Shown here one piece after another: positions 3,590-51,114 of a stretch of DNA of 64,000 bases; the first letter of the stretch is position 1; each line of letters starts with the position of its first letter. The notes below the pieces were generated by a model. It was not told the DNA's origin and searched no databases. It saw only the letters and a list, made by a program, of their open reading frames with translations. Source of the stretch: Mactromeris polynyma (lineage: Eukaryota; Mollusca; Bivalvia; Venerida; Mactridae); the NCBI GenBank assembly GCA_032209605.1, contig JASFXZ010000001.1, forward strand, positions 27,718,619 through 27,782,618, in the 5' to 3' direction. A program made the translations under genes and the position numbers.

Positions 3590-3624
3590 TTGCCATATTT
3601 CTTGGAATATTATTGGTTTATTGA
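3590..3624 (+). CDS. MFSD1-like transporter, terminal exon with stop
   Basis: The acceptor TTTGCTTTCAG is followed by a 35-base exon that completes the split Val codon and encodes VAIFLGILLVY then TGA. This is the last half-helix of the transporter. Compared with MFSD1 the tail after the helix is very short. The gene on the plus strand ends here. Confidence 0.5.
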
Positions 3625-3629
3625 AGATA

Positions 3630-6117: not shown

Positions 6118-7286
6118 CATGGTGGCATATCACTGTCACCAGTTAGCATGATAGCGTTCGCGAATAAATTCGTGTTAACCACTTAATTATTACGATAATT
6201 ATCTAGCTATCTAGTTAATATTCGTGATAAATTTTCGGTATGATAAATATAATAAAACTAGAAACAGGCTTGAAAGTGCCCATAACTGCCACCTCTTACC
6301 TTTTTATGATGTATTACACTAGATTTAAGTGGTAACACGAATCTTATCTAGTTGACAACTTATTATGTTACTTAGTAACTCAAATTCGCGAATTTCACTT
6401 AAGATTCGTGTTACCACTTATTTATAAATGCGTTTTTGACTTCTACATGTAAGTGGCAACACGAATCTTATCTAGTTGACCACTTATTATGTTACTTAAT
6501 AGTCAAAAATGAATAAGTGGTAACACGAATCTTAAGTGAAATTCGCGAATTTGAGTTATTAAGTAACATAATAAGTAGTCAACTAGATAAGATTCGTGTT
6601 TCCACTTACATGTAGAAGTCAAAAATGAATAAGTGGTAACACGAATCTTAAGTGAAATTCGCGAATTTGAGTTATTAAGTAACATAATAAGTAGTCAACT
6701 AGATAAGATTCGTGTTTCCACTTACATGTAGAAGTCAAAAATGAATAAGTGGTAACACGAATCTTAAGTGAAATTCGCGAATTTGAGTTATTAAGTAACA
6801 TAATAAGTAGTCAACTAGATAAGATTCGTGTTACCACTTACATGTAGAAGCCAAAAATGAATAAGTGGTAACACGAATCTTAAGTAAAATTCGCGAATTT
6901 GAGTTATTAAGTAACATAATAAGTGGTCAACTAGATAATATTCGTGTTACCACTTACATGTAGAAGTCAAAAACGCCTTTATAAATAAGTGGTAACACGA
7001 ATCTTAAGTGAAATTCGCGAATTTGAGTTATTAAGTAACATAATAAGTAGTCAACTAGATAAGATTCGTGTTGCCACTTAAATCTAGTGTAATACGTCAT
7101 AAAAATGTAAGAGGTGGCAGTTATGGGCACTTTCAAGTCTGTTTCTAGTTGTATGATATTTATCTTACCGAAAATTTATCACGAATATTAACTAGATAGC
7201 TAGATAATTATCGTAATAATTAAGTGGTTAACACGAATTTATTCGCGAACGCTATCATGCTAACTGGTGGCAGTAATATGCCACCA
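6118..7286. mobile_element. Foldback element with long inverted arms and 8-bp target duplication
   Basis: The left end (TGGTGGCATAT from 6120) and right end (ATATGCCACCA to 7286) are inverted copies, and the match continues inward for more than 180 bases on each side. TAGATATT at 6110-6117 is repeated at 7287-7294, an 8-bp target duplication as in hAT-like transposition. The middle is an array of about five 116-bp units. Each unit is itself near-palindromic (AAGTGGTAACACGAATCTTA pairs with its complement at the other end), so the whole element can fold into nested hairpins. It has no gene. It splits the DIRS RT coding region. Confidence 0.88.
6511..7080. repeat. 116-bp tandem, self-complementary repeat array
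   Basis: Units with the core TTCGCGAATTTGAGTTA recur every 116 bases (starts offset 116 near 6503 and 6619, and on to about 7000). Each unit has inverted ends carrying ACACGAATCTTA and TAAGATTCGTGT. Confidence 0.8.
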
Positions 7287-8589
7287 TAGATATTATTGAA
7301 CATTGCCATATTGAATTTATAAAAGGGGAAAACCCTAAAAAATCATATTGTTACAGAAGCAACATTTCACAATCTGAAGAGCAGGTGATCAGTCAAGAAA
7401 TTGAAAAATTATTGGAAATGCAAGTTATTGAGGAAGTTGATCACCATCCAAATGAATATATTTCTTTTGAATCTGCCTTAAAATTGGTAAAACCATATAT
7501 GTTTTTTTGCTAGTACTGATATTAGACATGGGTACTATAGTGTACTAATAGCTATGCAAGATCAAGTAAAATTGAGATTTACTCATCTTGGTAAAATTTA
7601 CCAGTATAGAGCCCTACCGAATGGCTTATCCTGTGCTCCAAAACAGTTCACAAAAATGATGAAGCCAGTTTATGCATCTCTGCGCATGATGGGTCACAAA
7701 AATACAGGTTACATAGATGATTCATTGTTAATGGGTGATACATACCCTGAATGTGAACAAAATGTTCATGACACTGTTAATCTCATGACAGAGTTAGGTT
7801 TTATGATTCATGAAAAGAAATCTGTATTGGTTCCAACAAGAAAAATTACATTCCTTGGAAATGATATTGACTCTGAAAACATGGTTGTAACCTTGCCATT
7901 AGATAAAGTAGAAAAATTAGTCCAAGCATGCACAGATTTGCAAAAACGGCATAAAGCAAAAATTCGCGATGTTGCACACGTTTTAGGTCTCTTGGTATCA
8001 TCCTTTTCGGCTGTTGAGTTTGATCCATCGTTCTATAGAACTATAGAACGTGCAAAAATTCAAGCACTTCAGCACCATGCTGGTGATTATGAGTCGGTTA
8101 TGTTTATCACAGAAAGTATGAAAAATGAACTTGCATGGTGGATTAAAAATCTTGCTCAGCAAGATAGAAAAATAACACATGGAAATCCTGATCTCATAAT
8201 CACCACAGATGCTAGTTCATTTGGATGGGGTGCTGTTTGTGAGAAGGTAAAAATTGGCGGCCGATGGGATGAAACTGATATTAAAAATCATATTAACGTC
8301 TCGGAATTGCTTGCTGCAAGCCATGCTCTTAAATCGTTTTGCAAGACAATATCAAACATACATGTAAAAATATGTTCTGACAATTCATGTACAGTTGCAT
8401 ATGTTTGTAATATGGGTGGAAAAATGGAACACCTTAATAATATTGCAAAACATATGTGGTTCTGGGGCAAAGATAGAGAAATTTGGCTTTCAGCAACCCA
8501 TATTCCCGGTATTGAAAATGAGGCCGATTTTAGCTCAAGACATTTTGTGTTTTCAAAGGCAGTAGATTGTTTTGGATTACCGGAAATTG

Positions 8590-9097
8590 ACATGTTGCTT
8601 CTCGTTTGAACAAGCAACTTAATCGATTTGTTTTATGGAAACCAGATCCAGATGCAGAAGCCATTAATGCTTTTTCTGTGGATTGGAATTGTAAATACAT
8701 ATATGCATTCCCTCCTTTCAGGTTTGTGGCACAAGTGCTTCAGAAATTGAGGCAGGACAAAGCAGATGCCTTACTGGTGGCACCTTTTTTGATAACACAA
8801 AATTTCTATACCAGCATTCTAGAAATGCTGACACACGATCCATTTATTCTGAAAGTCGGACAAAACACATTGAAGTTACCACAAACGTGGAAAGTACATC
8901 CTTTAGTCAACAAACTACATATAATGCTATGCCGCATATCCGGAGATCCTATGAAAAGCGAAAACTATCTGCAAAATCTATCGCTATCATCATGGCGTCA
9001 TGGAGAAAGGCTACACAGAAGCAGTATTCCACGTATATTAACAGATGGGTTCACTTCTGTGGTCAAAGGGAAATTGATCCATTTCAAACCCCTATAG
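8590..9097 (+). pseudogene. DIRS RT polyprotein C-terminal domain
   Basis: This continues the RT/RNase H protein in the next frame after a one-base loss near 8594. It encodes NKQLNRFVLWKPDPDAEAIN, then an AFPPFRF motif and a LLVAPF strand. This is the conserved block found after RNase H in DIRS-type elements, sometimes compared with an adenine-methyltransferase-like fold. It ends at a stop at 9097 and overlaps the recombinase ORF by about 200 bases in another frame, as is usual in these elements. Confidence 0.65.
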
Positions 9098-10637
9098 AAT
9101 ATTGTGTAGAATTTCTTACTGAACTTTATGATTCAGGATTAAGCTATGAAACTTTAAATACAGCAAGAAGTGCTTTGTCAAGTTTATGTAAAAAACAAGA
9201 TGTATATAATTTTGGTAGTCATCCATTAGTTATAAGGTTTCTTACCGGTTTATATAACCTACGTCCAACAAAACCGAAATACAACGAGACATGTTATCTG
9301 AAAACACTAACACCAGTAAAAAATTTGTTATTGAAGATGTTATCTCTAAAACTTGTGATGCTAATTGCTTTGACTCAGGCAAGTCGAAACCATTCTATTT
9401 CTTTGTTAACATTAGATAATGTGAGGAAAGACAGTGAGTCTTATATCCTTCAATATTGTGGGTTGTTAAAACAGTTTAGTAAAGGAAAAGTTAATCCTAT
9501 CCTAAAATTGTTCAGATATGTGCCTGATGGCGACATTTGTGTATATAGTATTATTGCAGAATATATTGAACGAACTAGTAGTCTACGTAATGGTATTAAA
9601 CATTTAATAATCAGTTATATCCCAGCAAGCACGGGCATATCGGCCCAATATCAGCTAACTGATATCTGTTTGTAACATTGGTCCAACATTTCTCCGATAT
9701 TGGACATGTATCGGTGTTGAACTAGTATGTAAATTTTGAATCAGGGTATATGTTTAAATAAATTGTTTATTAATATTCACGTCAAATTCCAGTGTCAAAA
9801 GGTTATAAAATCCTCTTTTATAACATCGTGACCTTTCGATATCGGCCCAACAGCGGTTTGATATCGCGGGTGAGCGTGACTTCACCAATCTTAAAAAGAG
9901 ACTGTATAAAGGTATATAAAGAAGGTCAGTATATTTTCTACTTTTTATTTTTAAAATTTCTAGTGAAAAAAAAGCAACATGGAAAATCATGAAGAGAAAA
10001 TACATTTTACACAATATATTTCTACATTTTTTATTCACTCCATTCAGCCCGGGACTGGTATATATGCCGCCAACCTCAAACGGACATAGATCAAATTAAA
10101 CTGTTTTAAATATCAGGTAATCTCTTAGAAATGTTCTAATTCTATAACTTTTTTATCAGAATAACATTTTTATTCCAGTTTGCAATACATTCTGTTATTG
10201 TACACAGGCAGCATAATGTGCTGGCACAGTTGTTTGCAATTGTCATGTGTTTTCGCGTTTGACTGAAACTTTGAAAGATGAGAATTAACACATAAGAATG
10301 CATCGCTATTTTACCTCGCATGGACAAAATAATATTACTACGTAAGATGAAATATATTACTTTAATAAAGGTTGCTCGAAGTTGTTTATACTTATAGACG
10401 TATAGATAATATTTACAGGGGCGCCAGAATTTATTTCAGATTTGGGCTTACTTGTCCATTTATGTGAAGTGCTATTTGCTAATACACTGTATAATAAATA
10501 TATTGTAAAATCTTGCAAATATTTACTTGTCCATGATTCTTTTTAAATGCAATAACATTTGAAAACTACTGTGCCCGAGTTTATGCTGTGTATTCATATT
10601 AAATAAGTCACAAGCTGGACTACTTCTTATTTTAAGC

Positions 10638-11740: not shown

Positions 11741-12450
11741 ATAACAGTTCTTGTTACTCTGCCAAGTGCCAACAATATATGTGTATTTTTGTTAAAATAT
11801 ATTCTCAAAGTGCATGTCAACATTATGTGTTTACCTTTTATAGTTTTATTATTCTGCCAAGTGCCAAATGTATGTGTAGAACTATACGTACATATTCTAG
11901 TCTTCGTAACTATTCAAGAATACAAATTTCTTAATTGATATTTTTCATTGAAATCATAATTTCAGAATAGTCTAGCAGTCTTATGGACAGTTCTTGTTAC
12001 TCGGCCAAGTGGCAACAATATGTGTATTTTTTTGTTTTAAATTCTCCAAGTGCATGTCAACATTATGTGTTTTCCTTTTATAGTTTTATTATTCTGCTAA
12101 GTGTGAAATGTATGTGTAGAACTATACGTACATATTCTAGTCTTCGTAACTATTCAAGAATACAAATTTCTTAATTGATATTTTTCATTGAAATTATAAT
12201 TTCAGAATAGTCTAGCAGTCTTACGGACAGTTCTTGTTACTCGGCCAAGTGCCAACAATATATGTGTATTTTTTGTTTTAAATTCTCGAAGTGCATGTCA
12301 ACATTATGTGTTTACCTTTTATAGTTTTATTATTCTGCTAAGTGTCAAATGTATGTGTAGAACTATACGTACATATATTCTAGTCTTCGTCGATCAGTAA
12401 TTCAAGAATACAAATTTCTGAATTGAATTTTCATTGAAATCATAATTTCA
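11741..12450. repeat. Three tandem copies of a unit of about 240 bp
   Basis: Units start at TTCTTGTTACTC (about 11747, 11991 and 12231). All share AAGTGCATGTCAACATTATG and ACTATACGTACATATTCTAG. They lie inside the CCCAGCAAGCA element, 3' of its gene. Confidence 0.8.
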
Positions 12451-13861
12451 GTTGTAATTTGAATAAAATGACATACTGATTTTAAATGTGTATGTATTGT
12501 ATCACTGACCTATAACTGTTATACCTCTATAAGTTGGGGTCTAATCATATATAGGAGTTGCCTTGTTGTTCGATCCCTACCTGGAATTTGAAGTGTATTG
12601 TGCAAGACCCACATCCCCCTGTTCACGGTCATATTAAGAGGTCATAAGTATGTCAGTTATTTTGTGCCAGACTACATCAACCATACTTATGTGTCAAAAC
12701 AGTGTTGTGGCGTTAATTTTCACATTTAGGGATTGTTGTAAAGCCATAATCTGATGTTGGTCAAATATCGAAATCAGACGATGGGCCCATATCGAAAAAC
12801 TACAACGGTCCGATATCGAAAAACAACAACGGTCCAATGTCAATTTGATATCGGTCCAATATTGGCTTGATGTTGGAAACGATGTTGGGCCGATATTACG
12901 TCCACTTTGCAAAACTGATGGTGCTCCGATATTGATATGTGATGTTGGGCCGATATTGCAGATTATATTGGTCCAATATCGGCTTGATGTATCATGCTTG
13001 CTGGGATCCAGCCACATAAACCTGTAGTCTTAACAACTGTAAGTCGTTGGATAAAATGTGTGTTGAAAAACTCTGGAATTGACATTGATAAATATAGCTC
13101 CCACAGCACAAGAAGTGCTGTTTCATCAAAAGTGAAAGCAAGTGGACTTCCGATAAGTGAAATAATGAAAGTAGCAGGTTGGTCTACAAATACAACTTTT
13201 GCCAGATACTATGACAAGCCTCTGGAGAAATAAAAAGGTAGTTCTTTCCAGGATATTGTACTACAGTAAACAGGTACTTAATTGATACTTAAGTTTCTAG
13301 AAAAGTTGATGATTGTTTTCTATGATATGGCCTAACACTATTCTTTCCAGTATTGGGAAATGGATATTGAGTTATCTTTCTTGGCACAAAATTCCTGTAA
13401 ATCATTTCCAGTAAAACAGTGTTTTAAGAATTTATCATTGAACTTTTCTTCTAGATTACATTCCTTTCTTTAAACCATGGTAAACGCTGCAAAATACAAT
13501 TGTAAGAGTCGACTGTGTACCTTGGTCGAAATAAAATGCAAAAATAAAATTGAAATGCTGATTTACCAACCCTTTTTTCATGGATGTAACCGTAACCACA
13601 CATATATGTTTTGCCTTACTGAAAATTAACACATGTACTTTTTATTTTGGCTTTCAAGTATACCTGTTTGAAAATAGGAATTTATGACTGAAGTGACTAG
13701 GATGTGTTTTTTATTGAAACATATACTGGCTTATGATCTGAGTAATAAGACTCCAAAATGCCCCATGACTGCAAATGACGTGTAGGGAAATTAATATAAA
13801 TCTGGTCTAAACATGAATCTTAATCTGTAGTAGCTGAATTAAGTAAAGGAGAAAAGTGAAA

Positions 13862-21813: not shown

Positions 21814-22551
21814 TATAGGGGACTCTTTACTTGCAAACGGGCGCCATTTTGTTGACCTAGTTACTATTTTTAGTAACTCATTTGCATATAAGCGATGAGT
21901 GTACTATGGTCTATTCAATGTGAATCCCTTTACAATGTATGGTCTACCGGATGTGTGAACAATAGTCTATTGAAATGTTAATCCGTTGATCAAGCCAACC
22001 ACCGGATGCCCGTACAATAACCCATCTATTTTTTAGACATTTATGAATGGAAAAATTGATTCAAGACCGGATGCTTTAACAATAGCCTATTGACATGTGG
22101 TCAATGTACAGAACACGTTGTTTTGCCTATTGGTCATGATGAAAAAGGTGAATAGTGTGACACAGTCTGAGCATGTTTATAAGCTCGTGGTACAGCAAGT
22201 CATTTCATTCGCACCGAGAACGTTGGAGAAAAACTAATTGGAAGGACAACAGACAACTTTATATTGCCGTTATCCAACTACAGACATAGGACATTATGGA
22301 GGACATACATATAACCGCGATTAGAAAAAGTTGGACCACTATTATCAAAGCATTGCTGTCTGAACAAACATCGTGTGTTGTGGATTTTTCTTGTGGAAAA
22401 TGACATTTTGACCATGAACATGAGAGAAGAGATTGGATGTGAAAAACTTGCCCCCGCTAAAAACAGAAAGCTATTATCCATCATACAGAAGCGAGGTCCT
22501 CGTGCTTTCGAAATGTTCGTGGAATCTCTTTTGCAAAACAATCTAAATCAC
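21814..22551 (+). repeat. Left terminal inverted repeat arm, D1
   Basis: Inverted match to 27478-28232, starting TATAGGGGACTCTTTACTTG. The arm includes a promoter-proximal region and most of a CARD gene. The match stops just after the NNLNH codons of the CARD. Confidence 0.88.
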
Positions 22552-22671
22552 CTGGTAGAAAAACTTCTCTCTAATATCAGTGAAAGAACGGACAGACCAC
22601 AGAATACTACAAGACATGTCAAACGACAACAGCGCTTTGGCACACACATCCGCTACAAACAGTATATATGA
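22296..22671 (+). pseudogene. CARD-domain gene, left arm, D1 (frameshifted)
   Basis: ATG at 22296 begins a caspase-recruitment domain: the helix TAIRKSWTTIIKALL, then ENDILTMNMREEIG, then LLSIIQKRGPRAFEMFVESL, the signature final helices of CARDs such as those of RAIDD and cIAP. An extra T near 22382 breaks the frame after about 29 codons; the remainder is open in the second frame to 22671. CARDs mediate homotypic assembly in apoptosis and innate signalling, so a mobile or viral copy could act as a decoy. A RING ORF follows in another frame. Confidence 0.8.
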
Positions 22672-22834
22672 AGATACTACAGCGTGTAATATCTGCGTGA
22701 ATGATATAATTTCTGTCGCTATGAATCCATGTGGACACACATTATGTTCCACTTGCGGAGACATATTTCTACGACAAAGGTCGTGTTGTTACTGTAAACA
22801 ACGTGTTACTAATTTGATTCGAATCTTTATTTGA
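22580..22834 (+). CDS. RING-finger ORF downstream of CARD, D1
   Basis: The frame carries a C3HC4-type RING near its end: CNIC, then NPCGHTLCSTCG, then SCCYCKQRV and a hydrophobic IRIFI tail, as in the C-terminal RINGs of inhibitor-of-apoptosis E3 ligases. It overlaps the end of the CARD frame but is read in a different frame, so CARD and RING may be one protein joined by an intron or a lost base, or two proteins. The RING lies just outside the part repeated in the right arm. The first Met at 22580 is arbitrary. Confidence 0.7.
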   Translation: MKERTDHRILQDMSNDNSALAHTSATNSIYEDTTACNICVNDIISVAMNPCGHTLCSTCGDIFLRQRSCCYCKQRVTNLIRIFI

Positions 22835-22999
22835 CAAAGTTTATTTTTACTATAAACAGTTCACAACCGGGATGTTGAAAATTAAGAATTCACTTAGTGG
22901 ACTAAGGTACTGGTAAACGTGTGTGAACACGTCCGTCTACCAATAGAATGTGTGTCATGTGTTACAAATAGAATGTACATCACGTGACATAAAACTTTG

Positions 23000-23007
23000 T
23001 ATATAAG
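23000..23007 (+). promoter_or_regulatory. TATA box upstream of small ORF/TBP-like pair
   Basis: TATATAAG lies 121 bp before the ATG at 23128. The same box is at 48262 in D2. A CACGTG E-box-like CACGTGAC is just upstream at 22981. Confidence 0.45.
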
Positions 23008-23127
23008 TGGACTGTCTGACTACTAGTCTGGTACAGTATCAGTAGTAGTAGGCTAAATCGTGTCGGACCAATCAGAAGACATTGAACATTATACATAAAA
23101 ACTGATCATGACGGTCATTCATTCATT

Positions 23128-23271
23128 ATGTTTGGACTCCTTTTCGCTGTATGTTGCTTTATAGATGCGGTGTGTTGGTGGTTGAGATTACGACAATTCA
23201 GAAGAGAAGCCAGGGAAGCGGCTGAACGATTTGTGATTGTCCTTGATCAAGATCTAGAGAAAGATGATTAA
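23128..23271 (+). CDS. 47-aa membrane-type ORF overlapping the TBP-like gene, D1
   Basis: It begins MFGLLFAVCCFIDAVCWWL, one short hydrophobic segment, followed by an amphipathic basic/acidic helix (RQFRREAREAAERF) and an acidic tail. Its stop overlaps the start codon of the next gene (ATGATTAA), tight packing more like a virus than a host gene. The same ORF is intact in D2 at 48385-48528. No family recognised. Confidence 0.55.
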   Translation: MFGLLFAVCCFIDAVCWWLRLRQFRREAREAAERFVIVLDQDLEKDD

Positions 23272-23771
23272 CAACGTTGTCCTCACTACGGACCTACATT
23301 GTGATATTGTCCTACGCCAGTTTGTGTTAGTACATAACAATGTTATCTACAAGCCCGAAACATTCACGGGAGCTCAGTGGAAATGTAAGAAGATTGGAGG
23401 ACACTGTTTGTTATTTCCTAATGGAAAAATGATCGTCAATGGGAAGGCCAACTCTGTTAAAGAAGATAAGCGACGCCTGAGACGATACGCTCGTCTATTA
23501 CAAAAGATGGGATGGGATGTGCAGTTAAGACGTATAGATGTATCAACCATATCCGCTTCGTTCAAAGTTGAAGGACCTATAAACTTTCCACAGACTGTGA
23601 GATACTATCGAGGGAGCTACGAACAGGAACGATTTCAAGCCGCCATGTTTACTAGAGTGTGTACATTTTACGTATTTTCATTCCGGTAGTGTGCTTATGA
23701 CAGGGCTTAAAACTGAGAAACAATTGTATGATGTGTGTATACCCGTACTTATCGAACTACCACTATTGTAA
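23264..23771 (+). pseudogene. TATA-binding-protein-like gene, two lobes, frameshift between them, D1
   Basis: The first frame (23264-23689) matches the N-terminal TBP repeat in order: NNVVLTTDLHC, IYKPETFTGAQW, LLFPNGKMIVNGK, then RYARLLQKMGW. It continues into the second repeat (ISASFKVEG, YEQERFQAAMF). The rest of the second repeat is in the next frame from about 23660 (YFHSGSVLMTG) to a stop at 23771. Total length is close to a TBP core. Both copies carry the same one-base offset, so it predates the duplication or reflects frameshifting or an unusual splice. TBP-like genes occur in several large DNA viruses. A role in directing transcription of the element is inferred. Confidence 0.72.
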
Positions 23772-23807
23772 AGTACTTCGGGGGACCACCCTAATCCCCG
23801 GAGTACT
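23772..23807. terminator. 12-bp stem hairpin directly after the TBP-like stop, D1
   Basis: AGTACTTCGGGG at 23772-23783 pairs with CCCCGGAGTACT at 23796-23807 (one G-T pair), starting at the base after the TAA. It sits between convergent gene sets and is unchanged in D2 at 49029-49064. It may end or process transcripts; this role is inferred. Confidence 0.5.
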
Positions 23808-24131
23808 GTATTGAGCGGGGTTAATGAAATATAGAATTGTACTTTTGTGTTCAATTCGTTGAGTATAATTATTTTTACACTTGAGTAAAAGAAAACAAAG
23901 AAATGAATACTATGTCTACAATTTTATTTTACAAATACACAATAATCACAAAACACGATTCACAAGTCGTTCATTGTAGTACAAGTTCACGGAATTAAAA
24001 TGATTCGTCTCATAATCCATCTGCTACGTCTATGAATAGCTTAAAACAAAACTGTATTAAATGGATCACTGTTCGGTTGTAGATGTGGTAATTTTAGGGA
24101 TCCCCTCTGTGTCGGCCTTTATATCCATTAA

Positions 24132-24353
24132 TTAAGTCACGTTGTCGAGGAGGTCCGTACAATCGGGGCACCTATCTAGAAGTTTACTCTTGTTATGTTG
24201 TTCTTTCATAGCTACCTCTGATCTGGCCATTTCTACCGCATCAGCGACCGGTGTCACGAGTTCAATCACGGGTACTTTAACCGCACCACCCGACTGAGTT
24301 TTTCCGACCACATAATGCCCTTTATCATTCGGCCGTAGCTTTCCCTCAGCCAT
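24132..24353 (-). CDS. 73-aa unknown ORF, D1
   Basis: It starts MAEGKLRPNDKGHYVVGKTQ, has a central VPVIELVTPVADAV segment, a charged helix and a CPDC pair near the end. In D2 the same ORF lacks two internal segments, both by multiples of three, so the frame stays open. I do not recognise the family. It is in the convergent minus-strand block of the inverted-repeat element. Confidence 0.45.
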   Translation of the reverse strand: MAEGKLRPNDKGHYVVGKTQSGGAVKVPVIELVTPVADAVEMARSEVAMKEQHNKSKLLDRCPDCTDLLDNVT

Positions 24354-24379
24354 CTGTCCATCATTCTATGTTCATTTGT

Positions 24380-24560
24380 TTTGTACATCTATTAGTGTTC
24401 GTTGGCCTTTAAATCAGAGTGAAACAAGATCGAACATGTATTGTTTCCGGTTCAGACGTACTATTGGGAATCGGACCTCTTAAACGACTCAGCCATCTGT
24501 CGAAAATGTTGTGTCCAGCGTTCTATGTTCATTTGTTTTGTACATCTATTAGTGTTCGTT
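24380..24560. repeat. D1-specific insertion/duplication with a 50-bp palindrome
   Basis: The stretch TTGTACATCTATTAGTGTTCG occurs twice here and once in D2. Between the copies is AAATCAGAGTGAAACAAGAT, an inverted match to 26748-26797. Confidence 0.65.
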
Positions 24561-24572
24561 CGCCTTTTCCCC

Positions 24573-25111
24573 TTATATCCATTCGTCGTCATCACTCTGG
24601 TCGCTGTCATCGTTCTCTGACTTCAATATACCTTCTATTAAATAATGGTGTATCTGAACAGCCGATTTAAAGGCCTGTCGCAGTATCATTCCCTCAGACA
24701 CGTGTTCACACGTTGGTGAATGACTCCGTATTCTAATTGAAAGGTGTAGAGAAGCAGTTGTTTATACGTATGTTTGACGCTTGTTATGTCTTCCGCTTTA
24801 AGTTTTGATTCTGCCTTTCTCTTGGCATCGTCAATGGACATTCCATCTCGCTCATATTTTTCAACTATTTCTCTCCACGATTCCTCATTATTGGCTGTTA
24901 CTTTACGAAACATGGCACCAAACACTTTGTCCTCTTCACTGTCCCTGTCCTCTACATCTTCTTCGCTCTGGTAATCGGAAATCCAACGTTTTAAAGGTGG
25001 CATTTCCACGTGATCGTCCTCGGCAGAACGCTTATTACACCATCGTTTGACGTGAGTCTGTAAAGAATGAACGTCACCAAACACGATACCGCAATCGCAG
25101 CAACCGATCAT
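24573..25111 (-). pseudogene. Zinc-finger protein of the inverted-repeat element, D1
   Basis: The likely start is at 25111 (MIGCCDCGIVFGDVHSLQTH). It has a C-x2-C-x12-H-x4-C zinc finger, a nuclear-signal-like KRW cluster, an acidic stretch (QSEEDVEDRDSEED) and a long charged helix (WREIVEKYERDGMSIDDAKR). In D1 a deletion relative to D2 near 24705 shifts the frame and stops it at 24686; the remaining acidic C-terminus lies in another frame to 24573. It resembles an uncharacterised finger protein I associate with invertebrate Maverick/adintovirus-like loci. That link is from memory and unverified. Confidence 0.55.
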
Positions 25112-25118
25112 ATCTAGA

Positions 25119-25333
25119 CTGAGCCCTGAACCCCAAACACCGGAGCCCCAACTGGAGCTGCGAAGCCCCAAACACCGGAGCCCCGGAGCCCCAAACACCT
25201 GAGCCCTACACACCTGAGCCCGGAGCCCCAAACACCGGATCCCCGGAGCCCCAACTTGAGCCTCGGAGCCCCAACCGGAGCACCGGAGCCCCAAACACCG
25301 GAGCCCCAACTGGAGCCCCGGAGCCCCAAGCTC
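25119..25333. repeat. GC-rich 15-bp minisatellite, D1
   Basis: Units such as GAGCCCCAAACACCG repeat with variants. The minus strand is G-rich with runs of four G, so G-quadruplexes are possible. All three minus-strand frames are open through it (VFGAP-, CLGLR- and GVWGS-type repeats). It lies directly upstream of the zinc-finger start. The D2 array has a different unit arrangement. Confidence 0.85.
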
Positions 25334-25714
25334 TATTACTTGAGACAAGACAGAAGGTCCTACGACCACGTGGCCGTAGAGATGACGTCGCGATTTGCAC
25401 TGAAAAAGCCATCTACTTCCGGTTGAACGCACTCAATCGACAGAGCTTTAAAACAAGGCTTGGAAGGAACCAAAAATCGATAGCATTCGGATAAAAGCTA
25501 ACGGAGTAATGACGGTTTAAAGTTTGAGTGCCAGAATGAATTAAAGTTAAAGTAAGCTGTTTTACAAGGGAGAATTCACTTTAAGACATTTATAATGGTA
25601 ATAGATGGGTTGTCTCCATGGCGTTAGAACTCTGAGCGATAGGAAATGGATAGATCGGTCAATTAGAAATATAATCAATTGGTTGGCCATGAAAAGGGCC
25701 TTTTGGGGTGGTGA

Positions 25715-26035
25715 ATGTTTAATACTGGATATGCAGATTTTATTTCTAAATTAGAAAACTTGATTTTATCTGGTAAAGAAAATCCTAAATGTATTAGAAA
25801 AGTCCTGCATGTTTTAACAGGGTTACCGTCAATACCAGTACCAATTGGATCATTGTACGTTTTTTCTATTATAAATGTTCTCCATGAACATTTCTCGATG
25901 CAACTTTTTATTTCTCCGGTTTCAATAGTTTTCAGGACGAGTTTTTCAACAGATTATATTGTTATGTTAAACAAAGAAACTGGTGAATCGTCAAAAACAT
26001 TTTCAGCGTTTAAAACATGTTTTCTGATTTCGTGA
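25715..26035 (+). CDS. 106-aa unknown ORF, D1
   Basis: It begins MFNTGYADFISKLENLILSG and includes a hydrophobic middle (VPIGSLYVFSIINVL). It is intact in D2 with only a few amino-acid changes. No domain recognised. It may be a small gene of the inverted-repeat element or chance in a recent duplicate. Confidence 0.35.
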   Translation: MFNTGYADFISKLENLILSGKENPKCIRKVLHVLTGLPSIPVPIGSLYVFSIINVLHEHFSMQLFISPVSIVFRTSFSTDYIVMLNKETGESSKTFSAFKTCFLIS

Positions 26036-26039
26036 GGAA

Positions 26040-27470
26040 AATGTTAGCTTTCCTTGAAATATCTATATCTGACACTCATTTTTGGTATTCAGAAACTACC
26101 CCCGCGTTCCATTTTACAAAAATGAAAAATGTGTAAGATTTAAAGTTTCTCTAATATAGTGAAATTATTAAATTAAATCGGTTGGTATAGTATTTATAAA
26201 TACTTTTGTCAACATTGACCAGCTCTCTTTCAGACCTTTGTTAATACAATTGTGTGTTTATCAAATTTGAAATATAATAATTTTGAGAAATGGTTTAAAA
26301 ACTGATAAAGGACTATAATTCGAAATAAGCGATCAAAATTAGAATAGAGGACCCGGGCTGTGTTTCAAAGCTTTTGATATAGATCAGAGCAGAAATATTT
26401 TAAGTGTAAAATGTTGTACTTAAACTGAAAAACCATATTGGAAGGTCCATAATTCTATTGCTATTTGGCCAATTTACATAGATTATAGATTATAATATGT
26501 TGGTTGACTTACTGAACAAGATGATATATGATGTACATAGTTTGTGTTTAAAATAAATGAAGAAAATACATAGCAAAGATCTATATCATATATGGCTGAC
26601 TCTCTAAGGTACAACAAGTAATATTCAGTAGTGTATAAGTTGCAGCATTTTGGTCAATTTTTTAATCCTTATAGTGCGGTAGTTAAGATATTAAATAAAT
26701 AAAGGGTTCTATAGAAACCGATGAGTTTGACCTGTTAATTCCAGCTCAAATCAGAAATCGGAAACAATGCATGTTCGATATTGTTTCACTCTGATTTAAA
26801 ATATCAAAGAAACTGGTTGTATTTTACATTCCATAGCTCCAAATACAAATTATTATTATTATTAATTATGGCACATGTATTCAGCAATTATAAGTGTAAT
26901 CATTTATTTACTTTCTTGTTCGCTTAATTGAAGTAATGATTGTATATTTTATTCAGGCTTAATAGATTTACGAAAATATGTATAAAATTATACATGTACT
27001 ACTAATACTATTTTTTAAATATAGTATAGGTTGACATATATATATATAAATAGGAATAATAGACAGTTTCGTCACAATTTGTGTGTAGTGCATATTGGAC
27101 ATATTTTTGTGATAATTTTGTAGACGATATTGTTATAGTTTAAAGGAATATGTTTTGAGGTAAATGGTATGTATTTTAAGTGTGTGCATGCGTTCGTGCG
27201 TGCGTAGGTGCGTTCTTTCGTACGAGTGCGTGTAGTTACTGTATATGTGGCTGCGACTGCGATTTTTGGGCTAGTGGCGCAAATTACGTCATCGAGAAAA
27301 TAATATTATTATAAACATTATGTTAGTGCTTAGACATGTTCAGAAATTGTCTGTACACAATACTTTTTGTTCGGTTTATGTCAATAGTATTTTCAATAAA
27401 ACTAAACTAATATAAATATGCATATACAATTGTCTGTTGTCCTTCCAACACTTAGATACAAAGTTTTATG
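26040..27470. other. AT-rich interior of the inverted-repeat element
   Basis: No gene seen. Contains a 50-bp nested palindrome (26748-26797), short TA runs near 27035 and TGCG-rich repeats near 27185-27235. Next to the right arm, GACATAAAACTTTGTAT (inverted, about 27459-27475) repeats the sequence at 22985, suggesting the right arm lost the RING segment by deletion. Confidence 0.5.
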
Positions 27471-27732
27471 TCACATGGTGATTAAGATTGTTTTGCAAAA
27501 GAGATTCCACGAACATTTCGAAAGCACGAGGACCTCGCTTCTGTATGATAGATAATAGCTTTCTGTTTTTAGCGGAGGCAAGTTTTTCATATCCAATCTC
27601 TTCTCTCATGTTCATTGTCAAAATGTCATTTTCCACAAGAAAATCCACAACACACGATGTTTGTTCAGACAGCAATGCTTTGATAATAGTGGTCCAACTT
27701 TTTCTAATCGCGGTTCTATGTTTGTCCTCCAT
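27466..27732 (-). CDS. CARD-domain protein, right arm, D1 (intact, 88 aa)
   Basis: An intact CARD on the minus strand begins MEDKHRTAIRKSWTTI and contains FLVENDILTMNMREEIG, ASAKNRKLLSIIQKRGPRAF and ends NNLNHHVT. The frame is open a further 71 codons upstream to 27945, but the shared start in all four copies is this Met. Compared with the left arm it lacks the linker and RING. The protein is little more than one CARD, the format of CARD-only proteins that block CARD signalling. Target and effect are unknown. Confidence 0.8.
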   Translation of the reverse strand: MEDKHRTAIRKSWTTIIKALLSEQTSCVVDFLVENDILTMNMREEIGYEKLASAKNRKLLSIIQKRGPRAFEMFVESLLQNNLNHHVT

Positions 27733-28232
27733 AATGACTGTCTTATGTCTGTAGTTGGATAACGGCAATATAAAGTTGTATGTTGTCCTTCCAATTATTT
27801 TTTCTCCAACGTTCTCGGTGTTCCTTGGTGCGAATGAAATGACTTGCTGTACCACGAGCTTATAAACATGCTCAGACTGTGTCACACTATTCACCTTTAT
27901 CATTATGACCAATAGGCAAAACAACTTGTTCTGTGCATTGTCCACATGTCAATAGGCTATTGTTCACGCATCCGGTCTTGAATCAATACTTCTATTCAAA
28001 AATGTCTAAAAATAAATGGGTTATTGTACGGGCATCCGGTGGTTGGCTTGATCAACAGATAAACATTTCAATAGACTATTGTTCACACATCCGGTAGACC
28101 ATACATTGTATAGGGATTCACTTTGAATAGATCATAGTACAATCATCGCTTATATGCAAATGAGTTACTATAAATAGTAACTAGGTCAACAAAATGGCGC
28201 CGTTTGTTTGCAAGTAAAGAGTCCCCTATACT
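27478..28232 (-). repeat. Right terminal inverted repeat arm, D1
   Basis: Inverted partner of 21814-22551, ending GAGTCCCCTATACT at 28232. Confidence 0.88.
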
Positions 28233-30905: not shown

Positions 30906-30968
30906 TAGAGCACGTTGGAGATAACATCTATGTATGAAAACTCTACTATAACGCCTGTCTGGAATACG

Positions 30969-32345
30969 ATGGCCGACGACTCGTTCTCTGGAGATCTGGA
31001 CTTCTCATCCGGCGATGGTGTTTATAATCTTAACAATTCCATTTTTGCTGCCAATGGAACTGCATTGACTAACAACACTGGCGGTGGTAACGGTTCGTTT
31101 GACGACTACTACGACGGTTATTATGAAGACGACGAGTATTATTATTCATATTATGTGGAAATATTTCAGTTTGAAATAGTCACAATGGGATACATTCGTC
31201 CGCTTCTGATTTTTCTTACTACAATAACGAATTTGTTCGTTTGTTGCTACTTTCTGGCGCAGAAACATCGAGGGAAAGCAACCAACCTACTGTTCATCAG
31301 TATCGCCTTCTCCGACACTATGACGGGCGTTTCATTATTGCCAAATTCTTTAGGAATATATGCAGCGGATTATACAGACATTTCTAGAGAATGGTGTTTG
31401 TCATACATGATCCTCAGGTTTTACGTCTCTCGCGTATTCCACACCGTGTCAGTGTGGCAGACGGTCATACTGAGTATTCAGCGTTACATATGCGTGTGTC
31501 ACCCATTCATTTCCGGCAGGGTGTGTACACTCTGGAAAATGTTGATCAGTATTGGCTTCTCGTACGTGTTTGCTGCCATTCTTAACGTCTACCATTTGGT
31601 TAACAACAAACTTGGGACAGGAATAAGGTGTCGTTGGCACGTAGAACAACCATGCACTAGGACATGTGTGTATCTATGGTTCAGTGTTGCTCTTCAACAT
31701 ATTGTTCCTTGTTTTCTACTTCTGTGGCTAACTATTAAGACTTTATTGGAATTGAACAAAGCGCAAAAGCGAATCTCTACCATGTCACTCAGGTCAAACA
31801 ACTCGACAAGACTTAAAAAGGACAGAATCATTACAATCACCGTCATTCTAATTGTCGTCGGCTTCCTGATTCCAGAATTTCCTTACGGTATCTACAAAAT
31901 CGTTTTGGTAATACTACAACACGTTGATACACATGATGTTTTTACTCTGTATATTAACCACGTGATCATCTGCGTCTATGAGATTGTCTTAATCATCAGT
32001 TTTAATGCCAATTTCTGGATTTACTGCGCAATGATGCATGATTTCCGGCGGAGCTTAGTTCGGTTGGTCACGTGCGGAATGGTCAGGCTTCGTAAAAGCG
32101 TCTCCCGACTACGATCGTTGTCTCAATCGAGTCGTAAGAGCAATGTATCTCGCACGAGCTCGAATGCAAGTCGTCACAGAGTGTTCAGTCGTACAACAAG
32201 TCTACACTCAACAACCTCTGATGTTGTTCACCACACAGCGGTCATACCACTCACTTCGACTAAAGGGTACGATAAAATCAACTTCAAAGATAAATCTACA
32301 GTGCACAGCTGCGCAGACGACAATATGTGTGACGATGTTTTCTAA
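30969..32345 (+). CDS. Class A GPCR, sex-peptide/FMRFamide-receptor-like, D1
   Basis: An intronless seven-helix receptor, probably at the plasma membrane, sensing a neuropeptide. Counting from the upstream edge of the frame (30915), the N-terminus is acidic and Tyr-rich with several N-glycosylation sites. TM1 is at about 91-113, TM2 has SIAFSDTMTG, the TM3 end reads QRYICVCHP instead of DRY, TM6 has VGFLIPEFPYG instead of CWxP, and TM7 reads FNANFWIYC instead of NPxxY. QRY plus the NFWIY variant is typical of the myosuppressin/sex-peptide receptor group. The Cys of WCLSY and one in ECL2 probably form the disulfide. The Ser/Arg-rich tail suits kinase and arrestin control. The ATG at 30969 is chosen because it is shared with D2; an ATG at 30930 exists only in D1. 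Ligand unknown. Confidence 0.88.
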   Translation: MADDSFSGDLDFSSGDGVYNLNNSIFAANGTALTNNTGGGNGSFDDYYDGYYEDDEYYYSYYVEIFQFEIVTMGYIRPLLIFLTTITNLFVCCYFLAQKHRGKATNLLFISIAFSDTMTGVSLLPNSLGIYAADYTDISREWCLSYMILRFYVSRVFHTVSVWQTVILSIQRYICVCHPFISGRVCTLWKMLISIGFSYVFAAILNVYHLVNNKLGTGIRCRWHVEQPCTRTCVYLWFSVALQHIVPCFLLLWLTIKTLLELNKAQKRISTMSLRSNNSTRLKKDRIITITVILIVVGFLIPEFPYGIYKIVLVILQHVDTHDVFTLYINHVIICVYEIVLIISFNANFWIYCAMMHDFRRSLVRLVTCGMVRLRKSVSRLRSLSQSSRKSNVSRTSSNASRHRVFSRTTSLHSTTSDVVHHTAVIPLTSTKGYDKINFKDKSTVHSCADDNMCDDVF

Positions 32346-39566: not shown

Positions 39567-40099
39567 ATGGCCTAACACTATTCTTTCCAGTATTGGGAAA
39601 TGGATATTGAGTAATCTTTCTTGGCACAAAATTCCTGTGAATCATTTCCAGTAAAACAGTGTTTTAAGAATTTATCATTGAAATTTTCTTCTAGATTACA
39701 TTCCTTTCTTTAAACCATGGTAAACGCTGCAAAATACAATTGTAATATTTGACTGTTTACCTTGGTCGAAATAAAATGCAAAAATAAAATTGAAATGCTG
39801 ATTTACCAACCCTTTTTTCATGGATGTAACCGTAACCACACATATATGTCTTGCCTTACTGAAAATTAACACATGTACTTTTTATTTTGGCTTTCAAGTA
39901 TACCTGTTTGAATAGGAATTTATGACTGAAGTGACTATGATGTGTTTTTTATTGAAACATATACTGGCTTATGATCTTAGTAATAAGACTCCACAATGCC
40001 CCATGACTGCAAATGACGTGTAGGGAAATTTATATAAATCTGGTCTAAACATGAATCATAATCTGTAGTAGCTGAATTAAGTAAAGGAGAAAAGTGAAA

Positions 40100-41907
40100 T
40101 TATGCTGAAAGATAATTTGCTATTGAACTGCTGATATGACGGTCTTGATTGAAGTCACCTATCAGAATGGTTGGACAGTGGAGGGAAATATTTGAATTAA
40201 GTTTCACTACAAGTTTCTTAACATTTTCAAATCTCCAAACCATTACAGTTGATGGGTAATAGAGAGGAAACAACAGTGTTGTGGACTCATTATTAGAGAA
40301 AGTGTCTAAGCTTGGCAACTGTAACTGAAATATTGGCTCTGTACGTAAACGCATCATTTCGAGTTTAACATCTTCTGACACACTGATTGTCATTTCATTT
40401 AATTCTAAAATATGCACACAACTTAGATTTCTCACACGACTTAAGCCAACATAATGAATGTGGTCATTTTTCCTATTTCCAAAATGTACAATAGCTCCAT
40501 GCAAGGTTGAACCTTGCGCTCTATGAATTGTTTTTCTTGCCACCATTTGAAATGGAAACTGACGCCGAACAACAAGGTATGATTTGTAATGCTGAATGCT
40601 GAAACTACGAGTTGTTTCCAATATGGGTGTCCATCCTTTAGGTATATTTCTTTTATACAAATGGGTATATTTTTGTCTCCAACATAAACTAGTTGTTTCA
40701 TGTTCAAGCTGAACCCAAACAATGATGCAACGATCCGAATGCTCAACTCTATAGTCAAACATCTTAATGACACATGGTGTTCCATTAGCTAGGCCATCGC
40801 CAACATCAATATTGACACACAGTTCATAGGGAGGTCCAATACCAAGATTTAAAAACTTCTGAAGACTCATTGTTTTTTAAGCATCCTCTGGAATCCTCCT
40901 TAATATATTTTCTTTTAAAGTACTGGTTATATCACCAGATACACTATCTATGTCATGTACCACAGTTTGATATGTAGACTGCAATTTTCCAAGTATTTTT
41001 TGATTGTGCTGTCCACTTTCTGAACGTGTTGTAAATAAATGGGGCAAATTGTCTATATCTGATGAATCTTTATCAACTTTAAGAACTCTTGATCTAAGTG
41101 TGTCCATATCTTCCACCTTTGTATTACCCTCTCTTAATCTGTTCAACAACTGTGCAAAAGACAAATCATCTTTTTGACGCATTATTTCATCTAATTCATA
41201 CACAGAGAAATAATCCATCCATAAATTTGCACCAAGACATTCAATACAACCCAATGGCTGAGAAAATATCAATGAGTCCATTACTGGTTTTAGCTGAAAC
41301 AAGCCACCAAACACAATGACACTGACCCCACCAAAAGGGTTTGAGCATCCCTTTATTTCTTGTAATCTCAAATTTATAAAATTGAAAATTTTCTTTCCAA
41401 CCTTTGATATTTCATCTATGAATGCTACTTTCAAATACATCTCATTGTGTCTAGCTGTTGCATGTCAAGCGGCTTAAAAGCAAACCTCTTTCCAACAGGT
41501 ATTTCAAAAGCTGAGTTTATAGTACTTCCTCCTATATTATGAGCTGCTTTTCCAGCTGGAGCACACGATAAAACCTTTAAAGTATTAGGATTTTCCCCTG
41601 CTGTGTTGTTACAGTACTTAATCAAGGCCTGGTTCAGAGCCCTCAATAAGACACGTTTACCAATTCTAGCTCCACCTGTAAGGAAATTATATAAAGGTTC
41701 CTCTTTTGTTTTGAAGTGATAGAGTACAGTGCAAAAGAACTTTTTTTTTCTGTGGTTCAGATTCTGTGCAACTGCAAGATATTCATCATTGCTTAATTCA
41801 TTGTATGGAAGTTGTTTAGACTCTAATCTTTTTCGAGCTATACCTAAATCTTGCCCGATGTCATACTGACCATTTGTGCTTGGATGATTTTGGTTATTTT
41901 GAGACAC
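40100..41907 (-). pseudogene. Helitron PIF1-like helicase and endonuclease-like tail, D2
   Basis: Better preserved than D1: 41907-41431, 41440-40877 and 40870-40100 are three long frames covering all helicase motifs. The Walker A position reads GGARIGKRVLL, still without the Gly-Thr/Ser of a working P-loop, so the defect in the first Gly is shared with D1 and older than the duplication. Walker B is FIDEISKVG and motif III GGLFQLKPV. HRAQGSTLHG, HYVGLSRVR and ILIGDFNQDRH follow. Confidence 0.82.
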
Positions 41908-42445
41908 ACTGCCTGGATCAAAACATCCTAATCAGTTTGACACAGCAGAAATCTCTGCAAGGTCAATTGCTTCTAAATGCTGTGTTTCAGGCAAAACAGT
42001 ATATTGATGGTCATTTTCTATGTCATTTTGGTCGATCATTACACATTGATCTAAGCTGCTGGGTATTTTTTCATACCTGCTTTTAACAGTGTCAATGGTG
42101 TTCTTTTTATTATATTAACTCTCTTCGTATGTATTGAAACCATTAATCAGGTCAATATCTTCATTTCTCCAGGCTGAACAAATACTTGTCTATAATGTTC
42201 CTCTTTGTCATCATTCAAGCTTATTTTATGGTACATGTACCTGATTACCTTTTGTTTCTTCCTTTTACGCATTACAGTCCCATCTTTCATTTCAAAAACA
42301 TCACAAGATTAATTATCATGGTCATTTTCAACACGATCCTTATCCATTCCTTCACAATCATTATCAAACGGATCATGCAAATAGTCATGTTCAGTCAATT
42401 CAGCATTTTGTATGTCCACTTTGGATTCCTTTCTTTTCACAAACA

Positions 42446-43570
42446 CTAGATGGAACCAAGATACAAATCAGCATAGCCACATTTGCTCATTTCTTTTGGA
42501 CGTCTTTTAATTGCATTATCAGATTCAACATTGCTTGAATTTTCAGACATTTCTTTCAGATCAGAGACGAACTTAAGCAAAACAGTTCTCATTTCAGGCT
42601 GATTAGTGTCAATAAATACTACATCTCTTGAGCTTCTTCTCAATGGCATTTGAAGTACCAAATATGATGCTTCTTGATCCCCAATTTCTAAATGGCCCAA
42701 ACATTGATTTCCAATTCGCCGCACCTGCTTTCTTAAATCACTATCTCTAGATTGTGCCTCTCTGCATGCCTCATAAAGCAAATTTGAAAGTCCCCTCTGT
42801 CCTTTTGATATATAGGACACAATGTATGAAACACAAGCATATGGATCTAAAATGTATTAAATATCCATATTTGCCTCCCAGCAGTGTAATAAAGCAGCAT
42901 TGTAGCTATTTATTCTTGTTTCCTCAAGAGATCGTTGCAAGAATACCTTTGTCGTTGTTAAAGTGGACCTCTATATGTCTCTAAATCCATATTTAGCTCT
43001 GTCAAAAAGGTTTCAAAGCTTTTTTACAGGTTCACATTTTTATTGTGCCAAATAGTTAGATATTGTATGGAAATTTTTCAAACCATCTACTTTCATTTTT
43101 TCATCCGAGAGAGGGTCTAATATTCTAGTAGAAGGCATTGGAGGCAAGGGGAGATTAATCCTGCATACTGCTTCACCCTTTTTCCTGCAAGTTCTAGCAT
43201 GTTTATGGGTCTGATAGTTAATCAATTCAGGTTTGGTCCCATCTTTCTTACAAGTGATGTATTTGTCAATAAATAAAACAATATCCTCCTCATTATTAAT
43301 GTCATACACCGGTGAATTTTTTATCCATATTAACATATGAATATGGGGAGAGCCTCTCTGTTGAAACTCGACACGAAAAAGGTATTCTCCAATTTCACCT
43401 ACTGGTTTCAAGTCATGCTTCAAAATATTAGCTAGATATGCCTGGAATTTGTGATCAAAATACCTAGCACAGGTAACTGGGTCGGACTTAATAAGATGAC
43501 ATTTCTCTTGCCAACTTAGTTTTTCTACATCACAGTCTTGCAATTCTTTTTGATCAACAAGTCTTGACAA
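42446..43570 (-). pseudogene. Helitron Rep (HUH nuclease), D2
   Basis: 43570-43040 is an unbroken frame with YLFRVEFQQRGSPHIHMLIW (HUH motif, His-Ile-His), then NYQTHKHARTCRKKGE (Cys/His-rich) and INLPLPPMPSTRILD. The catalytic-Tyr region follows at 42820-42446 (SYISKGQRGLSNLLYE). A TAA near 42858 and frame changes separate the two. This copy keeps about 30 bases that the D1 copy lost beside the Tigger. Confidence 0.8.
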
Positions 43571-43639
43571 ACATTTTAACAGAGTAGCCCACTTTGTTTC
43601 TGCAGAAGAAAAGGAACAAAACCAGGCAGGAATACCTAA

Positions 43640-44447
43640 TTACATTATCATTGCAAAAACATCTTTCTTTGCCATTTCCCAATAAGGAGGAGAGCCTCTA
43701 AAATTTCTTAAAACTTTAAACCCATCATCTTGCTTGACCAGAGTGTCAACAAATCCAGGAGTCAAAACTTCACCTGCTGTCATTTGTTCTCCTTTTGTTT
43801 TACGCTTGCGTACTTCTAACGTGATTTTGTCCTTTATCTGTTTTATTTGAATTCGTTTAAGTTTGAAACAAATATTTGGAATATTCATGGCTATACGTCT
43901 ATCAACATTTCTCCATTCCCATTTGCTAATAGTACTACAATGAAGTGGAATACTTCTATCATAACTGCCTTTTGTTTCATTTGTGTTACAGGTTGGACTG
44001 TTTGTACTAGACATCTTGCACCTTCCATAACTTTATTTGGTCTGACCTTTTCGAATGCAACGTGATGCTTGTACGATAACTTTCTCTTAAATTTAACTGG
44101 TATTGTTTCTGAGTCATCCAACATTCTTGGCAATTGTCGTAATGTAGTATAAATATCTGCTGGTACATTGACAACATTGCCCTTAAAATAATCTGGCCAC
44201 CCCTAGGCATTTCCCTCAACTGCGTAAATACTAATCGTGGAGATATAAGACGTTGTTCCAACTGGGTCAATCTTAACTCTTCTGGAATGAGGGGAAATTT
44301 TAATCCTTTTTCTACACAACATGCTGGCATCTTGCCACTTTTTATTGACTTCAAACAAGTTAAACAAATCCACTCTTTACCACTGCACTGACAGTATTTG
44401 TTATACTTTTTTGTGCAATACTGTGATATTTCCCTACTGCTTTGCAT
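43640..44447 (-). pseudogene. Helitron DUF6570 and Helitron_like_N region, D2
   Basis: 44447-44007 carries DUF6570 (EWICLTCLKSIKSGKMPAC, LTQLEQRLISPRLVF, MPRGGQ) and 44014-43640 the start of Helitron_like_N (LTPGFVDTLVKQDDGFKVL, RGSPPYWEMAKKDVFAMI). A frame change near 44010 and loss of the frame after 43640 show decay. Confidence 0.8.
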
Positions 44448-44778
44448 ATCTGCACGGAATGCCTAAACAATGTTTGTGTGCAGGACGTGCAAACATGTAT
44501 TGGACCATTTCGTGTTTAGTTTTTGAATGTGCTGTACATCTTTAAAAACTGTTTCTCAGAAACTCCAACTAAATGAGGAATTTTTTCAACCAAACAAGAG
44601 TTTGCTTCCTCACGTATGCCATTCACATGTGACACATGTACACCAGTTTCAACTCTTCCTTTTTACAGCCACTCCAGATGTGTCATATACACTATCAGGG
44701 CTTTTGCGTTTATCAGTAGGAATAGTCATGCTTGACAAACAGGATGGAACTTTTATTATGTTTTTACAGTTATGAATA

Positions 44779-45286
44779 TGTTATAGTGCTACTTTGTGAG
44801 GTTGACTCCTCAGTAAAAACAACACTAATGTGGGTTCATCATATAATTTATTTCTTTGAAGACTTCACAGTTAATAATTAAGCATCATGAATTTCCCTTG
44901 GTAAAAGGAAATCCCTGTCACCAGCATGTGATTCTGTCCAATACGTATACACACCAAACAAACCAAACCGTTATAGGGATGAGGTCCCTACAACCTCAAC
45001 AGGTACAATTACTTATTTACAACCTTTCCTGTCCACACAACCACACACTTCCGTCATTAATGGTGCCTATTGCATGATAGTTCCACACATGAATACCACT
45101 TCTGACCTTCCAATGACATTTACTGATAGCCGCCAAAATGCCACGACAGCAGCACCTTATATACATGAGAAGTGGAGCCCCCAAGCGGCGTCCGTGCTAT
45201 CACCAGGTAGAAAAACCCGTACATATCGTACTAGAAATCACCGGGACTTAAGGTTAAAATCCACTAAAAGTGAACCCTGCCACACA
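44779..45286 (-). mobile_element. Solo LTR in the Helitron (D2 only)
   Basis: 508 bp absent from D1 at 19897. It starts TG and ends CA on both strands. Read on the minus strand it has a TATATAAGG TATA box (about 45160) and an AATAAA polyadenylation signal (about 44850) in LTR order. The target duplication is unclear (ATA or a mutated longer one). No internal region remains, so it arose by LTR-LTR recombination after insertion. Confidence 0.7.
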
Positions 45287-45868: not shown

Positions 45869-45879
45869 TCTTAAGTATT

Positions 45880-51108: not shown

Positions 51109-51114
51109 TGAGGA

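Follow-up and report, generated by a model that had tools for sequence, protein, structure and literature searches.

The window analyzed in this work, a 64,000-nucleotide stretch of the genome of the bivalve Mactromeris polynyma (C1:27718619-27782618 of a 793-Mb genome), contains at positions 21814-28230 a 6.4-kb unit that carries CARD, RING, TBP and C2H2 zinc-finger sequences. With a probability of about 0.85, this unit is an internally deleted, non-autonomous relative of the Maverick/Polinton lineage in which the genes of the left arm would be early-acting. The derivative model is supported because the unit shares its ends and several genes with an element elsewhere in the genome, the C135 element, that bears a family B DNA polymerase (PolB), an integrase and a capsid gene. 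A preliminary description of this DNA, made from the letters alone, had taken the unit for an internally deleted relative of a larger DNA virus or Maverick/Polinton-like element, and the support for this comes from this single case.

A pair of inverted arms, each about 0.75 kb long and with 93% identity across 772 alignment columns, flanks a gene-packed left half and a right half without recognised genes (Table 1). The long inverted arms of the preliminary description were confirmed, and its AG...CT ends are replaced by the family end AGTAGTATAGG, which is eroded in the window: both ends of the first copy and the left end of the second copy deviate from it. CARD is recognised by Pfam in both arms (PF00619; left fragment, E 8.5e-9; right, E 2.8e-13), and so are RING (zf-C3HC4_3, E 2.2e-8) and TBP (PF00352, E 2.8e-15); the fourth member of the gene set named earlier, the C2H2 zinc finger (24689-25111, minus strand), is weak when taken alone (E 0.023, under the Pfam cut-off), and this gene matches the C2H2/ATPase-tail protein of the relatives. 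CARD and RING, listed before as separate genes, are one gene, and the two CARD genes are not head-to-head as supposed; both read inward from the arms and hence are convergent. As had been noted, polymerase, integrase and capsid genes gave no tblastn match in 21814-28232 (20 queries at E 1e-3 and 23 queries at E 1e-4), and because they were not found the unit is a derivative and not a Maverick proper. BIR is also absent from the unit by tblastn (best E 0.43), so no inhibitor of apoptosis (IAP) is assigned to it. The CARD-RING, TBP and C2H2 frames are all broken in the window copy, which is probably inactive.

The full-length relative (C135:1657310-1673154; 15,845 bp) is bounded by AGTAGTATAGG ends, has arms that are 99.7% identical over 286 bp, and is flanked on both sides by CCCCGT; it thus provides the longer element with the same ends whose search had been proposed. 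Mavericks and Polintons generate target-site duplications of 6 bp. The element was read as two pieces, L009 and L010 (stretches are cited here by such labels). Its left part carries on the plus strand PC4 (PF02229, E 1.2e-7), BIR (by tblastn) and TBP (PF00352, E 3.9e-14). On the minus strand there follow the capsid gene, a homologue of the 73-amino-acid (aa) open reading frame (ORF) of the window, two ORFs without assignment, a chromodomain (PF00385, E 7.5e-8) and an rve integrase (PF00665, E 2e-12), and then further unassigned ORFs, a weakly supported ATPase with C2H2 and, finally, a viral-type family B polymerase in two ORFs of one frame (PF03175, DNA_pol_B_2; E 2.3e-29 and 1.5e-9). This copy is also broken: the matches to TBP and to BIR are both split between two frames, and a stop interrupts PolB. 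By its polymerase, integrase, capsid, arms, duplication and size, it is a Maverick/Polinton; PMC4028283 gives 15-20 kb for Mavericks. It is a sister subfamily of the window unit and not its direct parent, because it carries PC4-BIR rather than CARD-RING.

The capsid gene was assigned through a homologue, P0020 (81% identical over 96%). Homologues numbered 310, of which 120 were listed; among those listed three bear the name 'F54H12.2-like' in bivalves, and all those with an organism name come from bivalves or from one bivalve-symbiont assembly. Since a search of the solved structures with the capsid alignment gave no match by sequence, folds were compared. The model of P0020 (predicted local distance difference test, pLDDT, 90.5) retrieved with Foldseek the solved double-jelly-roll capsid proteins of iridovirus, PBCV-1, Sputnik and mavirus (E 4e-15 to 1e-12; mavirus, 5.5e-13), with TM-scores of only about 0.5-0.65, and in BFVD a protein annotated as from a bracovirus (E 6e-28, TM-score 0.40). 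At C225:4316058, C101:3538270 and other places, other Maverick lineages show long uninterrupted PolB frames of about 1,360-1,400 aa; these share 33-36% identity with the C135 polymerase and have no TBP-family match within 20 kb.

A genome search with 201 bases taken from the outer end of the unit returned at least 47 matching places (40 of 81 candidates scored), which correspond to at least 40 distinct arm ends once second pieces are removed. Family arm ends consist of AGTAGTATAGG plus a GGCGCCATTTTGTTGACCTAGTTACTATT block; most of 20 stretches read around arm ends carry AGTAGTATAGG, and variants such as AGTAGTAAATGG occur. A 6-bp target-site duplication was present in all three relatives for which both ends were available: CCCCGT in C135, ATTGAG in C157 and AGTAAG in C112. 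CARD-RING matched in only three of the 20 stretches (L013, L014 and L015). Chance does not account for the arrangement, because other places in the genome have the arms and genes as well. These results also bear on a host origin, in which CARD genes of innate immunity would have undergone an inverted duplication and trapped a retrocopy of the host TBP between them. The locus does lie inside a tandem duplication, and PMC7831173 describes an expansion of BIR, CARD2 and RING domains in the hard clam and other bivalves; in contrast, the arm end occurs at 40 or more places, relatives carry Maverick genes and 6-bp duplications, and the TBPs of the elements are remote from the host protein (see below), so this origin is hardly credible. 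The two outcomes that the preliminary description named as fatal to it, a lack of other copies or an inverted duplication of a CARD gene belonging to the host, are excluded by the number of arm ends and by the rarity of CARD-RING among them.

The relatives include members that resemble the window unit in lacking the middle genes. Three separate places with an intact TBP (L029, L030 and L031) resemble one another at 96.0-98.6% over 1.9-3.6 kb, with a lower value, 87%, for the left end of L030. The order in L029 is arm, PC4, BIR, TBP, C2H2, the 73-aa-type ORF and the C2H2/ATPase tail, without capsid or integrase between them; L031, in the extent read, agrees with it as far as the 73-aa-type ORF and has PC4 in two frames, and L030 is devoid of PC4 and BIR. 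L032, the far end of a fourth copy, shows the arm, A+T-rich DNA, the minisatellite and the start of the C2H2/ATPase gene, with no match to PolB, integrase or capsid; L032, the stretch read there, lies about 2.2 kb from the TBP of this copy. The layout of the window unit is that of L029, but CARD-RING replaces PC4-BIR. L018 in turn repeats the order TBP, MAEG-type ORF, C2H2/ATPase tail, minisatellite, A+T-rich half and arm, again without PolB, integrase or capsid matches.

Instead of a member of a family that propagated as deleted, non-autonomous elements, the window could hold a full-length Maverick that decayed and lost its middle at this locus only. The broken genes of the window and the many relatives that are fragments would be expected from such decay, and we consider it unlikely, although a serious alternative, given that the same order without PolB, integrase and capsid matches is found at L018 and, in pieces, at L029-L032, and that L029, L030 and L031 are so much alike at three different places.

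Both window copies of TBP are truncated to 141 aa, with the remainder in another frame. An unbroken element TBP is found at six places in the genome, and a length of 169 aa is shared by 12 of 19 TBP homologues found outside. The TBP core is present, with two lobes, the DNA-intercalating Phe and a SYEPELFP-type stirrup, and full-length members of the family model as a complete two-lobed TBP. The SYEPELFP-type stretch, which in ordinary TBPs faces TFIIB, is kept in the element family, and the host TBP has it too. The latter is canonical and was found in pieces, the first of which is identical to human TBP at 54 of 60 residues; element TBPs are 28-32% identical to this first piece over 57 residues and up to 47% identical to a second piece over 34 residues. 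A recent retrocopy of the host TBP was rejected on the basis of this low identity to the first host piece, the distinct 169-aa family and the six unbroken copies. BIR accompanies TBP in 7 of the 11 TBP-bearing stretches read, and is missing from L018, L030 and both window copies. TBP-family matches also form clusters at C1:58770943-58788416 (17 matches) and C262:1006329-1016748 (6 matches), where many are short fragments that contain stops.

The TBP could also be taken as the mark of a different group of viruses (nudivirus-, herpes- or mirusvirus-like, for example) that captured TBP and IAP together and only later was overprinted with Maverick ends. TBP genes have been described in mirusviruses and phycodnaviruses (PMC10132985, PMC4602308). 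Nevertheless, TBP, PC4 and BIR lie inside the C135 Maverick, with TBP adjoining its capsid gene, which makes this scenario very improbable. Neither the window TBP nor the TBP alignment nor the C135 PolB retrieved a relative when scanned against IMG/VR, and TBP retrieved none from the phage records, a result that does not decide the matter.

That CARD and RING belong to one gene is seen in L014, where a single open frame of 178 aa (8173-8706, minus strand) contains both (CARD, E 1.8e-12; RING, E 5.6e-8). Genome-wide there are 25 CARD-RING matches at 19 places counted by eye, and five of these 19 are within 10 kb of a PolB match (0.02 expected; by coordinates). At L034 (C270), a CARD-RING that is 50% identical adjoins the integrase and PolB of another Maverick lineage, and no family arm was seen in its 6.5 kb. 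CARD-RING has few outside homologues (three were retrieved), and the best solved match of its CARD is RAIDD (1.7e-4). In L014 and L015, a BIR gene is located between CARD-RING and TBP; in L009, L023, L028, L029 and L031, PC4 and BIR are upstream of TBP. BIR was detected by Pfam in L029 and L031, and by tblastn in L009, L014, L015, L023 and L028. PC4 (1061-1525) and BIR (1874-2206) of L029 are adjacent genes. An unbroken CARD-RING frame of 187 aa is also present in L033 (1910-2473), with identical scores at three places (C40, C47 and C226:2302715); no Maverick arm end was seen in L033, and its ORF 3148-3786 resembles by eye a CRESS-DNA Rep protein.

Two classes of promoter-like sites were noted. 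PC4 (L009, L029) and BIR (L029, L031) are preceded by TATA-like sites, which in the same order are of the TATAAATA, TATAAATA and TATATAA types. The motif TATAAGGGG was seen four times in L009 (0.045 expected), each time on the strand that encodes the right-hand module, at 32, 72, 76 and 113 bases before the presumed starts of ORF8002, the 73-aa-type ORF, ORF5844 and the capsid gene, respectively. Two such motifs occur in L029 (0.015 expected), one of which precedes the 73-aa-type ORF; the window copies have one each, and the 51.3 kb of the window outside the elements none.

From sequence, we infer the following mechanism. Full-length members would behave as integrating viruses or transposons and would express the genes of the left arm first: PC4, BIR or CARD-RING, and TBP. 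The element TBP, together with PC4 in the relatives, would probably bring the host RNA polymerase II to the TATA-type promoters of the element itself, and could draw the host initiation machinery to TATAAGGGG as a second promoter class, if TBP does read this motif; such recruitment could occur because the SYEPELFP-type stretch is retained. BIR and CARD-RING would represent the domains of a cIAP placed in two proteins, a putative split IAP that would damp caspase or innate signaling; the label IAP-like is given on account of the CARD-RING order and the neighboring BIR, as the best RING match is LNX2. Deleted members, including the window unit before its decay, would rely on proteins of full-length kin for moving, copying and packaging. 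Only tentatively, then, we propose an animal Maverick lineage whose TBP and PC4 kit reads private TATAAGGGG promoters of virion genes and is accompanied by a split IAP (BIR, CARD-RING), and whose deleted satellites keep exactly this kit with an intact TBP and spread through the replication and capsid genes of their kin. The presence of TATAAGGGG makes the proposed promoter recognition by the element TBP directly testable.

Several observations weigh against the main interpretation, that of the unit as a deleted relative of such a Maverick lineage. The main weakness is that TBP and PolB occur together in one element only, that of C135; no PolB match lies within 20 kb of any of the six places with an intact TBP (105 PolB candidates, 68 of them scored), TBP is also unmatched at another PolB site that lies close to a family arm (C112:29137331-29139333), and the PolB-bearing element has PC4-BIR, not CARD-RING. 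Pfam supports its packaging ATPase weakly (AAA_22, 0.0012; Pox_A32, 0.071; both under the cut-off), and penton and protease were not identified in it, L009 5582-5914, 5844-6338, 7487-8065 and 8002-8352 having no Pfam match over the cut-off. The window element is without a clean left end and without a target-site duplication; the right flank of the second copy, TCAGCC, is unmatched on the left side, where the end is eroded. Regarding TATAAGGGG, the motif was spotted by eye and then counted post hoc on the same elements. Its exact form is missing at four of the eight C135 right-module genes examined (ORF5582, the integrase part, the ATPase and PolB), a fifth C135 motif (L010 6923, plus strand) precedes no recognised gene, the other motif of L029 is within an ORF, and among the 18 stretches L011-L028 it is absent from 15 and present once in each of three. 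Finally, the RING shows no specific likeness to those of IAPs: among solved structures it matches LNX2 best (1.5e-5), and the RING of BIRC3 follows at 2.8e-4.

The C135 element shares with the Mavericks/Polintons (polintoviruses, adintoviruses) the arms, the 6-bp duplication, PolB, the rve integrase with a chromodomain and the double-jelly-roll capsid; it differs in the TBP, PC4 and BIR added in the left arm (CARD-RING in other relatives), and the window unit differs further by its lack of PolB, integrase and capsid. In cIAP1/2 (BIRC2/3), as in the 178-aa frame, CARD is followed by RING, and a BIR gene adjoins CARD-RING in L014 and L015; in contrast to cIAP1/2, there is no BIR in the CARD-RING polypeptide, the domains are spread over two genes, the window copy has no BIR, and the RING is nearest to LNX2. 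To our knowledge, Mavericks have been taken to rely on host transcription. If the proposal is true, small integrating DNA viruses of animals can themselves encode some of the basal transcription apparatus, with a TBP and a PC4 of their own. Virus-encoded TBPs have been reported for far larger DNA viruses of plankton or algae, the mirusviruses (431.5 kb in the one described) and the Yellowstone Lake phycodnaviruses (171-178 kb), whereas here TBP is found in a 15.8-kb Maverick and its deleted kin in an animal-like genome. In the literature covered, from which subscription journals are mostly absent and which was in part accessible, no description of TBP or PC4 in Polintons was found, and a search for Maverick transposons with CARD and RING domains also yielded nothing.

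Homologues of anti-apoptotic genes are described in most mammal-associated adintoviruses by a preprint (PMC11071296). PMC7831173 reports that DNA transposons are overrepresented near the IAP genes of the hard clam, and that a 'G3' IAP of the hard clam and mussels joins BIR with PC4; in the elements, BIR and PC4 are together too, although as two adjacent genes. This gene neighborhood suggests that bivalve IAP genes of the BIR-PC4 type may derive from Mavericks, and BIR, CARD and RING genes in Mavericks would be a possible route for the spread of IAP genes in bivalves.

Table 1. Features of the 6.4-kb unit and of the duplication that contains it (window positions)
Feature	Position	Strand	Remarks
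Left terminal inverted repeat	21814-22566	+	Family end AGTAGTATAGG eroded here
CARD-RING gene, frame-broken	22296-22834	+	CARD part 22279-22620; RING ORF 22616-22834
TATA-box-like site TATATAAG	23000-23007	+	5' of the 47-aa/TBP gene pair; putative function
47-aa ORF	23128-23271	+	Hydrophobic N-terminus (by eye); overlaps TBP start
TBP gene, 141 aa	23264-23689	+	3' part out of frame; match runs to 23768
73-aa ORF 'MAEGKLRPN...'	24132-24353	-	Homologue of capsid-adjacent gene in full-length relative
TATAAGGGG motif	24569-24577	-
C2H2 gene, broken	24621-25111	-	ORF 24686-25111 plus match in other frame 24621-24707
G+C-rich minisatellite, GGAGCCCCAAACACC-like	25117-25329		Common to relatives
Right half without recognised genes	25430-27460		A+T-rich from about 26000; parts common to relatives
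Right terminal inverted repeat	27461-28230	-
Right-arm CARD ORF, 145 aa	27466-27903	-	CARD half without RING; reads inward
Second copy of the element	47099-53305		Inside tandem duplicate
Tandem duplication unit of about 25 kb holding the element	13327-34290		Partner 39567-59373; 96-98% identity in large pieces

The unit is present twice in the window because about 25 kb is tandemly duplicated. Divergence is about 5% between the arms of a copy and 0.8-1.7% between the two copies, the latter over the compared parts of the element, so the insertion is likely older than the duplication. The tandem duplication could be real or represent uncollapsed haplotypes. It also includes a G-protein-coupled-receptor-like ORF (30909-32345 and 56002-57438) and helicase-like ORFs (about 14.7-20 kb), all named by eye. 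Elsewhere in the window there are an array of five copies of a 116-bp repeat (6501-7087), with inverted copies between about 6113 and 7293, and 2.9 copies of a 240-bp repeat (11744-12451). The region 7491-9675 is reminiscent of DIRS-type retroelements, in that its ORFs look by eye like a reverse transcriptase/RNase H and like a tyrosine-recombinase-like protein.

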